A stretch of DNA of 36,497 nt, taken from contig CANQHD010000006.1 in NCBI GenBank assembly GCA_947623625.1, forward strand, positions 1 to 36,497, read 5' to 3'. Origin of the DNA: an uncultured Bacilli bacterium (GTDB lineage Bacteria; Bacillota_I; Bacilli_A; RF39; UBA660). The notes under the pieces were generated by a model. That model searched no databases, had not been told where the DNA came from, and saw only the letters and a program-made list of their open reading frames with translations. Positions 12,888 to 18,745 of this stretch are shown piece by piece (the stretch's first letter is position 1; each line of letters opens with the position of its first letter). A program made the translations under genes and the position numbers.

Positions 12888-13892
12888 TTAAATTTTTGAA
12901 TTTAAAGTTTGATTTTTCTCTACATGATTAAGAATAGAGGAAATAGAATTTTTTAAATTCATGTTAATACCATCTTCTATCAATTCTTCTTTATCATAAT
13001 CAAGTTCTTCCTGTTGAGTTAAAATAGCCTCTTTATATTCACTCGCTTTATGTCCTTTTATTCTTTTTTCTTCTTCTTTTGATGTACTTAATAATATAGA
13101 AGTACAAGAAAATCCATAACCATAAATCCTTGCATTGATATCTGTAAGCTCAGCGTATCCTTTTTGTAAAAGCTCTTTTGAAAATTGCTTACCCTCTTCA
13201 CTTTGAACGACATAATATCCAGCATCAATACAAGTATTATTTTTAAATCTTTCGGATCCATCATATAAAGCGCCTTCATTACATTGCTGTGTTGTAAAAA
13301 ACTGCCGATACGTCGCATCAAGCAAATATTGCTTTTCAACAATCTTTTCTTGTTCCACAACAGGGAAAAAAGCTGTAATGAAAGCATGTTTTTGGGTACA
13401 ATCAGGAAATGTTGAAGTATTATTCACTGTCACTTTTACTCCGAGTTCTAACAGTGGTAAAGCCGTTAATGCCTGTGAAAAACCACAACAACCATCTAAA
13501 GAAGCCTTAAAAAATTCTTCAATGGTATCTTCTTGATTCGCTAAAGCAACTCGAGCATTTTGAATCACACTTTGCAAAATAATTTCTACTTCTTCTTCAT
13601 TGAGTCCATCGCTAAGACCTTTTTCTCTATTTTCTAGTACAACTTTCAAGTGTTCCAAAGCATCTTTTTTCTTTTTTTCATCCATTTCATAATCAATTGG
13701 TGTACTTTCTATAACAAACAAAGAGGCACTTTTTTCACTTAAGTCATAATCATATGTATCCAGATTATTTGAATAGCAAAATTTAGCGTAAGCAGTATAA
13801 AGTTTTTGATAATCTTCATTTTTCTTTTGCTCATCTTTTTCCAATAATATTTGTTTTAAATTTTCTAAATATTCTTCTCTTATTTCATTCAT
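12888..13892 (-). CDS. Predicted papain/transglutaminase-fold protein with a Cys-His-Asp triad
   Basis: A 334-residue protein without signal peptide or membrane helix, so presumably cytosolic. I do not recognise a named family. The middle has a pattern seen in papain-like peptidases, transglutaminases and deamidases: GCCGFSQAL at 134-142 (nucleophile candidate Cys135 or Cys136 opening a helix), KHAFITAFFP with His169, and QYLLDATYRQFF with Asp192 followed by the characteristic TYRQF. Residues 1-130 and 275-334 are helical and highly charged. The final part is rich in Lys and Glu. AGGAG precedes the ATG. It lies between the J/LysM-like gene and a divergent Ig-like surface protein. Substrate is unknown; no activity is demonstrated by the sequence. 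Confidence 0.65.
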   Translation of the reverse strand: MNEIREEYLENLKQILLEKDEQKKNEDYQKLYTAYAKFCYSNNLDTYDYDLSEKSASLFVIESTPIDYEMDEKKKKDALEHLKVVLENREKGLSDGLNEEEVEIILQSVIQNARVALANQEDTIEEFFKASLDGCCGFSQALTALPLLELGVKVTVNNTSTFPDCTQKHAFITAFFPVVEQEKIVEKQYLLDATYRQFFTTQQCNEGALYDGSERFKNNTCIDAGYYVVQSEEGKQFSKELLQKGYAELTDINARIYGYGFSCTSILLSTSKEEEKRIKGHKASEYKEAILTQQEELDYDKEELIEDGINMNLKNSISSILNHVEKNQTLNSKI

Positions 13893-14115: not shown

Positions 14116-14868
14116 ATGGATAGTAAAACAAGAATAATTACTGTAGCAACCTTTACTTTTCTTGGTATCTATTCTATTACTTGCGGTGCAATATATCCAA
14201 AATATCAGGAATTAAAAACACCAAAAACTTCCTTTTTACTTATTGAAGAAAAACAAGTAGGAATTAAAAAAGAGTTACAATTACAACTAAAAGAGATTAC
14301 AACAGAAATAAATATTCCTTTATCTGTAAAAATAGCTGATTATTTAAATGAAGAAGTTTCAAGTGAGATACTTGCAGAATTAAAACTGGATACCAGTGAA
14401 GTAAATGTCCAACAACCAGGAGAATATAAATATAAGGTTTATTATAAAAAACAAGTTTTTGAAGGAAATGTCATTGTTAAAGAAAAAGAAATTGAACAGC
14501 AGCAAAATACTTTACCACCTATTACTCCTAAGACAATTACTATTTATTTAAATGGACAAGTTCCAAGTGATATTTCAGCATTCGTTGTTGAAAATCTAAC
14601 ACCTGAGATGCGTGCAAATATGGTATTTACTCGTCCTGCAATTAATACAGGTGTTGTTGGAAGCTATACTTATACAATTCAATACAATGGAGCATATTAT
14701 CAAGGATCGATTTATGTTATTGAAGATCCTACTAGAGTAGAAACTGCTAAAAAATATAATTGCCAAACAGTAGATGGAAAATATTATGATGATAAAGGAA
14801 ATGAAGTTACTGAAGAAAATTATAAAGCAGCTTGTCAAAAAGAGAACAGCACTGAAGAAACAGAATAG
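14116..14868 (+). CDS. Membrane-anchored surface protein with two Ig-like beta-sandwich domains
   Basis: A 250-residue protein of unknown function. Residues 6-27 form a membrane anchor or uncleaved signal (VATFTFLGIYSITCGAI). Two similar beta domains follow, about 68-123 and 146-208. Each ends in the pattern PGEYKYKVYYKKQVFEGNVIV or VGSYTYTIQYNGAYYQGSIYV, as in bacterial Ig-like folds, with a Pro-rich joint (TLPPITPKT) between them. The tail carries two cysteines (YNCQT, AACQK) and an acidic end; there is no LPxTG sorting motif. GAGGAGG precedes the ATG. It is divergent from the Cys-His-Asp gene and probably surface-exposed. Its partner or ligand is unknown. Confidence 0.75.
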   Translation: MDSKTRIITVATFTFLGIYSITCGAIYPKYQELKTPKTSFLLIEEKQVGIKKELQLQLKEITTEINIPLSVKIADYLNEEVSSEILAELKLDTSEVNVQQPGEYKYKVYYKKQVFEGNVIVKEKEIEQQQNTLPPITPKTITIYLNGQVPSDISAFVVENLTPEMRANMVFTRPAINTGVVGSYTYTIQYNGAYYQGSIYVIEDPTRVETAKKYNCQTVDGKYYDDKGNEVTEENYKAACQKENSTEETE

Positions 14869-14942: not shown

Positions 14943-15380
14943 ATGGATGAGACAAAAGAAATCTTACAAGCAATTTACAAAGATAGTGAAATGGCAGCGT
15001 TTTCTCTTCAAAATTTATTAGAGGAATTAAAGGAGAAAAATAACAAAATAAAAGAAACGGTAACTCATATATTAGAAGGATATAAAAGATATCAAAAAGA
15101 CGCGACAACATATCTTGAAGAGTTAAATTATCCCAAAATTGAAGAAGGAAAAATGGCAAAGATGGCATCAAGAATGGGAATTCGAAAAGAAGTAAAAAAA
15201 GACAACAGTGATTCTAGTATTGCTGAGATGCTGATTCAAGGAATTTCGATGGGAAGCTTAGAAATGGAACAAAAACTCAGTCAATGTGAAGAAAAAATTG
15301 ACAAGAAATACTATAAGTTTGGTAAAAATTTTCTTGAATTTCAAGAAGATAATATTAAAGCTTTAAAAAAGCAATTATAA
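14943..15380 (+). CDS. Helical (possible four-helix-bundle) protein of unknown function
   Basis: A 145-residue soluble protein that is almost entirely alpha-helical by composition. Helices are suggested at 3-50, 52-66, 90-112 and 113-143, with an SIAEMLIQGISMGSLEMEQKL segment in the third. Size and pattern suggest a ferritin-like or DUF2383-type bundle, but I see no ExxH metal motif. AAAGGAG lies upstream of the ATG. It follows the Ig-like gene by 74 nt on the same strand and may be transcribed by read-through. Function is unknown. Confidence 0.7.
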   Translation: MDETKEILQAIYKDSEMAAFSLQNLLEELKEKNNKIKETVTHILEGYKRYQKDATTYLEELNYPKIEEGKMAKMASRMGIRKEVKKDNSDSSIAEMLIQGISMGSLEMEQKLSQCEEKIDKKYYKFGKNFLEFQEDNIKALKKQL

Positions 15381-16417: not shown

Positions 16418-17884
16418 TTACAAATGCATAATTGTTGTGAGTAACTTTTTCGCATATGGAGTTTTACAATCACGAATCATCGTTCTATTTGGACGTACTG
16501 AGTCCATTCTTGAATAAAGTGTTATATTATCTTCATTTTTTAAAGCAGTTCCTAAAGTAACTGGTTTTCCATTACAAAGTGCTTTGGAAAAATGAAATAA
16601 ATCTTCCAATCCAAGTGAACAAATAAGATCTAAAACCGTAGAATTTTTTGGGAGTTCATGTTTTGTTCCATCAGATAATGTGATACAAATACGATCTCTT
16701 AGAATATGTTTTTTAAGAGCTTGATAAAATTCCATGTCATCCGGAACTAATTCTTCCAAAGATTTTAATAATTTATAAAATTCAAAATGTTCAAGTTCTT
16801 TTTGCATCGTTGTATTTGGCTGATTATCATAAACGCAAATTCCTTTTTCAGCTAAATCTGTCATTTCTTGTGTTTTTATCTGAATCTGATACTGTAAATC
16901 TTCTTGAAAATGTCCAGTTGTATGAAAAGCTTGATATTTATTCATTTTAGGAGATGCTATATAGTCTTTCATTCGATTTTGAATCGGTGCAATTACTTGA
17001 TGAATGGATTGAAGAGAAGCATAACAATCTAAAACAGTAGGAACTGTCATTTTAACAACGCGTAAGTCATGCATTTGCTCATAGCTTAAATTTCTATTTA
17101 ATGCTTGATAAATCGCATAAATTTGTTTCATTTGAAAACGAATAGAAACAGGAATGTTTTGCTGATTTAAATGTTGTTGAAGAGAAGCGATTAAATCCTG
17201 TGTTTTTGGAAGAGATTCTTGTTCAATTTGATCTCTTTCTTGTTCGATTTGAAAGTATTTTTCTGGATTAAGGCAATGAATACTTCTATCTTCTAAAGCA
17301 TCTCGAATAAGACCACACCCTAAATTTCTAGCCATAGGAACAAAGATTTGAAGAGTTTCATTACTATTTTCAATCTGTTTATCTCGATTTTTCTTTTTAT
17401 CAATTGTAGACATGTTATGAACTCGATCTAAGAGTTTTAAAATAAAAGCTTCTGGGTGAAGATGAAGAAAAGAGCGAAAAAGCTTACTTGTATTGGTCGC
17501 TATTTTCATCTCTTTTGAAGAAAAACTATTCAGCTTTGTAACACTATCAACAATATCTCTTACTTCTTCACCAAAATAAAGAGCAATATCATCAAGCGTT
17601 ACACTTGTATCTTCTACAGTATCATGTAATAAACATCCAATAATTAACTTTGAAGAAAGCTGAAAATAAGAAGCGTAAAAAGCAACAGTAAATGGATGAA
17701 TAAAATAGGGCTCTCCACCTTCCCTTTCTTGTCCTTCATGTGCTTCTTTTGCTAAATAAAATGCTTTAGCAATTTGTTTTTGTTCTTCACCTTTTAAATA
17801 AGAACATGCTTCTAATAATCTTCTTAAGTCACTATCATTGTGATAATAAGGAACCCCATTTTTGACAATTTCACTAAACTCCAT
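16418..17884 (-). CDS. RelA/SpoT homologue with an intact hydrolase and a degenerate synthetase domain
   Basis: A 488-residue RSH protein, against about 730 for a full Rel. The HD hydrolase domain looks intact: HPFTVA (His63), LLHDTVED (His87, Asp88, Glu91, Asp92) and LLDRVHNM (Asp153, Asn157), so it should degrade (p)ppGpp. The synthetase domain (about 245-345) keeps the fold (IYAIYQ, DCYASLQSIH, MKDYIASPK, HTTG) but not the active site. DLLAIR is shortened to HDLR, so the catalytic Asp position is Gln by my alignment; NGYQS is NKYQA; and EVQIRT is QIQIKT, losing the catalytic Glu. A TGS domain follows (about 408-467); the ACT domain is missing. ATG 17884 follows GGAGG. A leader peptide and terminator precede it. 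Confidence 0.88.
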   Translation of the reverse strand: MEFSEIVKNGVPYYHNDSDLRRLLEACSYLKGEEQKQIAKAFYLAKEAHEGQEREGGEPYFIHPFTVAFYASYFQLSSKLIIGCLLHDTVEDTSVTLDDIALYFGEEVRDIVDSVTKLNSFSSKEMKIATNTSKLFRSFLHLHPEAFILKLLDRVHNMSTIDKKKNRDKQIENSNETLQIFVPMARNLGCGLIRDALEDRSIHCLNPEKYFQIEQERDQIEQESLPKTQDLIASLQQHLNQQNIPVSIRFQMKQIYAIYQALNRNLSYEQMHDLRVVKMTVPTVLDCYASLQSIHQVIAPIQNRMKDYIASPKMNKYQAFHTTGHFQEDLQYQIQIKTQEMTDLAEKGICVYDNQPNTTMQKELEHFEFYKLLKSLEELVPDDMEFYQALKKHILRDRICITLSDGTKHELPKNSTVLDLICSLGLEDLFHFSKALCNGKPVTLGTALKNEDNITLYSRMDSVRPNRTMIRDCKTPYAKKLLTTIMHL

Positions 17885-17895
17885 AAAAAACCTCC

Positions 17896-17924
17896 AAAAA
17901 AAACTCACAGCAAAACGCTGGAGT
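17896..17924 (-). terminator. Intrinsic terminator/attenuator between leader peptide and RSH gene
   Basis: On the minus strand ACTCCAGC pairs with GCTGTGAGT (one bulged T) around GTTTT, directly followed by eight Ts. The T run touches the RSH ribosome site TGGAGG, and no promoter lies in between, so RSH expression needs read-through. The CTCCA of the 5' arm is complementary to TGGAG in both the leader ribosome site (17986-17991) and the RSH ribosome site (17891-17896), which offers alternative pairings. Confidence 0.75.
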
Positions 17925-17927
17925 TTT

Positions 17928-17981
17928 TTAAAAGAAAGCAGGAAAGATAAAATTTAGTTTTTTTACTTCTTTTTTCATCAT
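17928..17981 (-). CDS. Short leader peptide upstream of the RSH gene
   Basis: A 17-codon frame encoding MMKKEVKKLNFIFPAFF. It has a strong GGAGGTGGG site before the ATG and a consensus promoter 19 nt upstream. It is lysine-rich at first, then carries four Phe codons within its last seven. It ends 3 nt before the attenuator stem. Size, position and bias fit a ribosome-sensing leader peptide, but it could also be a small functional peptide. It is too short for normal gene calling. Confidence 0.6.
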   Translation of the reverse strand: MMKKEVKKLNFIFPAFF

Positions 17982-17999
17982 CCCACCTCCATTACTCTC

Positions 18000-18028
18000 A
18001 TGATAAAACTTCAATATTTGTTTGTCAA
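18000..18028 (-). promoter_or_regulatory. Consensus promoter of the leader peptide-RSH transcript
   Basis: The minus strand reads TTGACA, a 17-bp spacer and TATCAT, starting 7 nt after the stop codon of the DUF421 gene. Transcription would begin just upstream of the leader-peptide ribosome site. Confidence 0.85.
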
Positions 18029-18034
18029 GAGTGT

Positions 18035-18745
18035 TTATTCTAAAGATGTATGATTTATTTTCACATCATTTTTGGGGTAAATCGTCAATTTTTCATTCGT
18101 ATCACAAATGACTAATAAAAGGTCTTCAACGGATGGATACCCTTCATTTTGAAGTCGTTTTAGAAGCCATTTCTCATTATGCCCAATCACTTTAATATTT
18201 TCTTTCATTAAAACACCATCAATAACTAAAGTAGAAGTAAGTCCTTTATATGGAACTTTTAATTTCATATCACTTGGTGTTACGGGATTATACTTACTTT
18301 TTAGAAGAAAACTAATACGCCCATTCGCTTCCATTAAAGCATATTCGACAGTTGATAAATCAAAATAACCATTGTATCTTGCTTCCTGAAGTAAATCATT
18401 GACATCAATTTTAGCTCGATTTAAGTTCTTCATTAAAATTTTTCCATCTTGAATAAGAAAAAATGGAGTCCCTATAAAAAGACGTCTTGCAAGCATACTT
18501 TTTATTGTTAGTAAAGAAATAAAAATAGATGCCGCTCCATAAATAATAATCGAGAAAACACCTTCAAAGAATTTTACATCTTGATTCAAGGTCATTTCAG
18601 CTGCAAGGGATCCAATCGTTATACCAATGGTATAGTCAAATAAATTCAGTTGTCCTATTTGCTTTCTTCCCATCGCTTTAGAAATAGAAAATAACACGAC
18701 AAGAGAAAGCAATCCTCTTCCTAATACCTCTAAGTAATTCATCAT
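18035..18745 (-). CDS. DUF421 (YetF/YrbG-type) membrane protein
   Basis: A 236-residue protein with three N-terminal membrane helices (to about residue 85) and two cytosolic alpha/beta domains. Family landmarks are ISKAMGRKQIGQLNLFDYTIGITIGSLAAEMTLN in pieces across helices 1-2, GTPFFLIQDGKILMKNLNRAKI, the LLQEAR helix and the paired VDGVLMKENIKVIG segment. Bacillus spore-membrane relatives (YetF, SpoVAEa-linked types) share this layout, but the role is not settled. It begins ATGATG, so the second ATG at 18742 is equally possible, after GGGTGAG. It is followed at once by the RSH promoter. Confidence 0.88.
   Translation of the reverse strand: MMNYLEVLGRGLLSLVVLFSISKAMGRKQIGQLNLFDYTIGITIGSLAAEMTLNQDVKFFEGVFSIIIYGAASIFISLLTIKSMLARRLFIGTPFFLIQDGKILMKNLNRAKIDVNDLLQEARYNGYFDLSTVEYALMEANGRISFLLKSKYNPVTPSDMKLKVPYKGLTSTLVIDGVLMKENIKVIGHNEKWLLKRLQNEGYPSVEDLLLVICDTNEKLTIYPKNDVKINHTSLE

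Follow-up and report, generated by a model that had tools for sequence, protein, structure and literature searches.

How might a gene for an enzyme that degrades the alarmone (p)ppGpp come under the control of the ribosome? The question is raised by one locus in the stretch of DNA analysed here (the window, 36,497 nucleotides from an uncultured Bacilli bacterium), where a short reading frame and an intrinsic terminator lie between a promoter match and an RSH gene. RSH enzymes are, to our knowledge, regulated mainly by allostery or through protein partners. A first-pass annotation of the locus was aware of no described case of such attenuation on a (p)ppGpp hydrolase gene, and a search of the open-access literature, covering few subscription papers, likewise turned up no paper in which an RSH or (p)ppGpp hydrolase gene is attenuated by a leader peptide. 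Our comparison of related genomes indicates that a real attenuator is very probably present at this site. On balance, the element is probably an attenuator in which the ribosome controls transcription of a hydrolase-only RSH gene, and through which starvation would lead to less hydrolase.

The leader region and the short RSH gene

The promoter, leader, SD sequences and terminator are present in the sequence as the first-pass annotation had described them, as are the four Phe codons among the last seven sense codons of the leader. The features, all on the minus strand, are as follows.

18023..18028 (-): -35 hexamer TTGACA, a sequence match
18000..18005 (-): -10 hexamer TATCAT, following TTGACA after a 17-nt spacer
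17976..17993 (-): segment A, the leader ribosome-binding site and start codons
17990-17982 (-): leader SD GGAGGTGGG, anti-SD duplex -10.6 kcal/mol
17928..17981 (-): leader frame MMKKEVKKLNFIFPAFF with stop codon, 17 codons, tandem ATGATG start
17935..17949 (-): segment B, the part of the late leader that can pair with A, reading ..FIFPA..
17898..17929 (-): intrinsic terminator stem-loop, -14.1 kcal/mol
17929-17917, 17916-17912 and 17911-17898 (-): 5' arm, loop and 3' arm of the terminator
17896..17903 (-): terminator T run, partly paired with an A tract
17891..17895 (-): RSH SD GGAGG, abutting the T run, anti-SD duplex -10.0 kcal/mol
17884 (-): RSH start ATG
16418..17884 (-): short RSH gene, 488 aa, with HD, RelA_SpoT and TGS domains and no ACT domain

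The second leader ATG (17978) is better spaced from the SD than the first. TTGACA-17-TATCAT scores 11/12 and is among the two best promoter matches in the 4 kb scanned. Taken by themselves, however, the promoter and terminator matches of the window are weak against chance: the promoter scan found 15 where shuffled sequences gave 19.6, and the terminator scan found 4 where shuffles gave 1.1. Because these scans do not clearly exceed chance, the case for the element rests on comparison among relatives. A search of the window with Rfam 15 models, covering T-box and other described RNA families, gave no match.

The 488-aa product (HD_4, RelA_SpoT, TGS) ends after the TGS domain; elsewhere the genome encodes a full-length Rel of 725 aa and a small synthetase of 227 aa. 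An alignment was made of the window protein, 126 short RSHs related to it and 23 long Rels. The hydrolase motifs HDxxED and DRxHNM are intact in the short RSHs (genes L004-L139), and the catalytic Glu of EIQIRT in the long Rels is Gln throughout the paralogue (QxQIRT); the window protein carries further changes, with RFQMK where the family has KxRTK. Since the HD motifs are kept and the synthetase Glu is lost, the short RSH is very probably a (p)ppGpp hydrolase and is predicted to be hydrolase-only, degrading but not making (p)ppGpp, which agrees with the annotation's naming of the gene as a (p)ppGpp hydrolase. In a 296-genome sample of the class, no short RSH was seen outside the family, other families having only the long Rel, and the paralogue looks family-specific on this sampling. 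Some genomes carry two short RSH genes, namely G032 (L009 and L055), G109, G031 and G404; in G032, one copy has a Cys leader and terminator and the other has neither.

RshC of Bacillus is also a second Rel copy ending after TGS and was classed as bifunctional [HS] in a survey that found it in six Bacillus strains only (PMC3153485). SpoT[Hs] of Moraxellaceae, with a degenerate synthetase, is hydrolase-only (PMC3153485, PMC9974481). The short RSH described here resembles RshC as a second RSH copy truncated after TGS but lacks the [HS] prediction, its synthetase Glu being Gln. It shares the loss of the synthetase with SpoT[Hs], although the latter keeps a longer C-terminal part, and thus has the length of an RshC together with the loss of the synthetase Glu.

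Conservation of the leader and terminator among relatives

The genus is represented by six members, counting that of the window; five have the short RSH gene, and all five keep the promoter, the SD-led leader and the terminator with it. In the sister species L006, roughly 220 nt of inserted sequence, within -250 to -1 of the RSH start, separate the gene from the leader terminator. Across the family, we used an automatic locus rule that is blind to codons and in which SD and terminator thresholds define leader detection. By this rule, the leader and terminator occur together at 82 of 127 short-RSH loci and at 2 of 24 long-Rel loci, counts that are not independent because the loci are related; visual inspection recovers the element at about eight further family loci missed by the rule. 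Most of the genomes are drafts in several contigs, and those with names come from metagenome assembly. In a protein tree, a clade of 69 short RSHs carries the element almost uniformly, and several basal short-RSH lineages are without it. The statistics leave out nine cases judged dubious, duplicate or overlong. TTGAC stands upstream of the leader at 65 of 73 loci, compared with 3 expected. Conservation read in this way from related sequences, and not the window matches, is decisive for the reality of the element, and the claim that a translated leader with an intrinsic terminator governs the RSH gene is supported by the genus and family counts.

Codon content and pairing of the leader

Leaders in the family are about 32 codons long, compared with 17 in the window, and the median end of their stop codon falls 12 nt into the terminator 5' arm. 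From -21 nt on, none of the 73 leader frames stops before -8, whereas 22 and 18 of 73 do so in the other two frames. The frame is also marked by its codons. In-frame Cys codons are concentrated 15-45 nt ahead of the terminator: the zone from 51 to 12 nt before the stem holds 99 of them, where the two other frames have 30 and 35, and 31 leaders have at least two in frame against 2 and 4 out of frame; outside this zone, Cys is at background. TGC makes up 53% of Cys codons in the zone and 17% in genes, and the median positions of the first and last Cys before the stem are -36 and -22. We rejected a by-product of start-codon pairing as the source of this enrichment, as 88 Cys codons against 26 and 35 remain without CATGY sites. 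Ser codons, mainly TCA and TCT, are likewise enriched in frame beside the Cys codons in the zone from -51 to -12.

In most relatives, the feature sensed is likely to be the Cys codons. This does not extend to every leader, however, since the window leader has no Cys codon, the sister leaders L005 and L006 have none either (L007 has one and L008 two), and about a quarter of family leaders have no Cys in the zone. The window leader does retain the promoter, the SD, A:B pairing (described below), the terminator and a stop codon at the base of the stem. In the window's subclade, either the codon signal has changed or only ribosome loading and speed matter. A wider Cys regulon was looked for at cysS loci of the family: at the three with a readable upstream region, we found neither a T-box nor a leader of this type, and no other Cys gene with such a leader came to light.

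Phe-tRNA supply, which the first-pass annotation had suggested as a possible signal, does not fit the family data: in the regulatory zone, Phe accounts for 10.0% of codons in frame compared with 11.2% and 15.5% in the other frames. The pyrimidine-rich B segment accounts better than sensing of Phe for the Phe-rich tail of the window leader. The codon conserved among related leaders is that of Cys, absent from the window leader. The annotation's other suggestion, general initiation as the input to the leader, is plausible. No conserved arrest-peptide sequence was seen in the family leaders.

Pairing within the leader RNA involves segments A and B, the latter zone carrying Cys codons in most relatives. 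In the window, the A:B duplex (transcribed parts) has a predicted energy of -14.6 kcal/mol (shuffle p 0.007). Among 22 segment pairs tested across the family, only A:B and the terminator stem are clearly enriched, with a mean z of -1.52 and t of -10.5 for A:B. When A and B segments were mated between loci, own-locus pairs reached -11.95 kcal/mol and other-locus pairs -8.95 kcal/mol (z -10.7, 0 of 20,000 permutations), z-scores and E-values alike bearing on selection and not on function. By this measure, the leader ribosome site and the late leader coevolve. For the terminator 5' arm, in contrast, the family shows no excess pairing with any upstream leader segment or with the RSH SD (no enrichment found for A:Te5, M1:Te5, M2:Te5, B:Te5 or RSH-SD:Te5), and a classical antiterminator formed by a leader segment and the terminator arm was discarded as a candidate, no such pairing being enriched. 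The pairing of CTCCA in the arm with TGGAG in either ribosome site, proposed from the window alone, is possible there but is not conserved. The pairing that is conserved joins the leader ribosome site to the late leader.

Proposed occlusion of the terminator by the ribosome, and competing readings

A ribosome at a stop codon a few nucleotides from an intrinsic terminator abolishes termination, hairpin folding needs 10-15 nt free between the A site and the stem, and in classical amino-acid attenuators that interval exceeds 20 nt (PMC4824070). At the pyrL terminator, termination increases when a stall occurs upstream of it (PMC5021804). As no antiterminator was found, the ribosome is the remaining means of preventing the hairpin; with the stop codon inside the 5' arm and the Cys codons just beyond the interference distance, a passing ribosome would open the gene and a waiting one would close it. 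We propose that a ribosome following RNA polymerase to the end of the leader would cover the terminator 5' arm and allow read-through (ON). If no ribosome has loaded before the late leader emerges, A:B pairing would shut the ribosome site and the terminator would form (OFF), such that only early-loading ribosomes would count and low initiation would also turn the gene OFF. A ribosome held at the Cys zone for want of Cys-tRNA would sit too far back, again leaving the terminator to form (OFF). Either way, starvation would lower production of the (p)ppGpp-degrading enzyme, and this sign of the response seems to us rather probable. In the window species, where Cys is gone, the evidence points to no more than the translation-dependent part (loading and speed). 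The most specific version, in which a Cys-codon leader operates family-wide with the ribosome as antiterminator, and a shortage of one charged tRNA, or failure to load a pioneer ribosome, shuts off the hydrolase and locks in the stringent response, is put forward tentatively, as slightly more doubtful than not.

In a toy kinetic model, the predicted sign was that of the pyrBI-like proposal over most rates tried, and a polymerase pause was needed if transcription outran translation. B. subtilis RNA polymerase outruns the first ribosome (PMC9226507), and occlusion would be weakened under such conditions unless the polymerase pauses.

With an SD-led frame, a terminator and a regulated gene, the element belongs to the broad class of ribosome-mediated transcription attenuators. 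Its closest geometric parallel is E. coli pyrBI, which responds to UTP via polymerase pausing and controls a biosynthetic operon. There, translation of the pyrL leader into the terminator prevents termination and no antiterminator is needed (PMC5021804, PMC4824070), and the main geometric feature of this type of control, a leader frame that reaches or overlaps the terminator, is found here as well. Unlike in pyrBI, the leader here has a ribosome site that its own late part would gate, most relatives place Cys codons ahead of the terminator, and the gene controlled encodes a predicted alarmone hydrolase. Mycobacterial polycysteine leaderless uORFs, described by Canestrari et al. 2020, are reportedly cysteine-responsive attenuators. 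They share short frames with Cys codons but are leaderless, belong to another phylum and have other operonic targets, whereas the element here is SD-led, overlaps the terminator and precedes an RSH gene.

The trp and his attenuators also combine an SD-led leader peptide with an intrinsic terminator, and their cluster of codons for a single amino acid has a counterpart in Cys at the family level, though not in the window leader. Such repeated codons are the hallmark of these systems and would favour the opposite sign, in which a starvation stall raises read-through and more hydrolase provides negative feedback on the alarm. Moderate slowing may also prolong the stay of the ribosome on the stop codon, and in one setting of the toy model, with a slow polymerase, mild slowing raised read-through slightly. 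However, this arrangement would call for a structure competing with the terminator, and no mutually exclusive antiterminator was found, none of the five pairings of the 5' arm being enriched; the stop codon lies inside the terminator arm and not more than 20 nt upstream as in amino-acid attenuators (PMC4824070). The target is not a biosynthetic operon either, and the sign that we predict is opposite to that of trp and his. As read from these sequences, the geometry suits a ribosome that occludes the terminator better than it suits a structural switch of the trp type, and we regard the opposite sign as unlikely.

A sensor of general translation or of antibiotics, responding to ribosome loading or to drug-induced stalling in the manner of the vmlR, erm or toiL uORFs, with the Cys codons serving as slow codons that time the ribosome, is somewhat less unlikely but still improbable. 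The absence of Cys from the window leader favours it, as does the A:B gating of the leader ribosome site, which ties output to loading, and both Bacilli and E. coli have known uORF attenuators that respond to stress on translation (PMC9226507, PMC12121999). vmlR and other antibiotic-inducible uORFs of Bacilli likewise place a uORF and an intrinsic terminator upstream of the gene, but vmlR uses antiterminator and anti-antiterminator structures and drug-stalled ribosomes (PMC9226507). Segment pairing across the family revealed no vmlR- or erm-type antiterminator or SD-releasing structure downstream of a stall site, the enrichment of Cys is specific in both codon and position, and the leaders lack a visible arrest-peptide motif. 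Constitutive tuning, in which the terminator merely lowers expression and the short frame is incidental, gains some weight from leader sequences, which diverge strongly from genus to genus. It is nevertheless very improbable, as the openness of the frame, the SD, the position of Cys and the coevolution of A with B are all under selection.

If occlusion by the ribosome is correct, a predicted (p)ppGpp hydrolase gene would be wired to the ribosome through a leader peptide in many genera of a large family of uncultured small-genome gut Bacilli, linking translation speed, and in most species apparently cysteine supply, to removal of the alarmone. In the most specific version, shutting down the hydrolase would amount to a feed-forward loop by which the stringent response is locked in, and the supply of one amino acid may set the rate at which the alarm is switched off in most relatives, the window species excepted. 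The design would unite a terminator for which the ribosome acts as antiterminator with a leader ribosome site that closes itself. The case also suggests that leaders of the amino-acid type can be put to use on a signalling gene instead of a biosynthetic operon.

Several neighbouring features were also recorded. Long frames at 12888-13892 (-), 14116-14868 (+) and 14943-15380 (+) have no Pfam or NCBIfam match, the latter two forming a plus-strand pair inside a minus-strand region. A YetF/DUF421 membrane-protein gene at 18035-18745 ends just upstream of the RSH promoter; it is likewise upstream in L008, as judged by reading frame, and not in the other sisters. The second 11/12 promoter match, TTGACA-17-TATAGT at 16390-16362 (-), lies directly upstream of the CorA gene, which suggests that CorA can do without read-through from the RSH gene.
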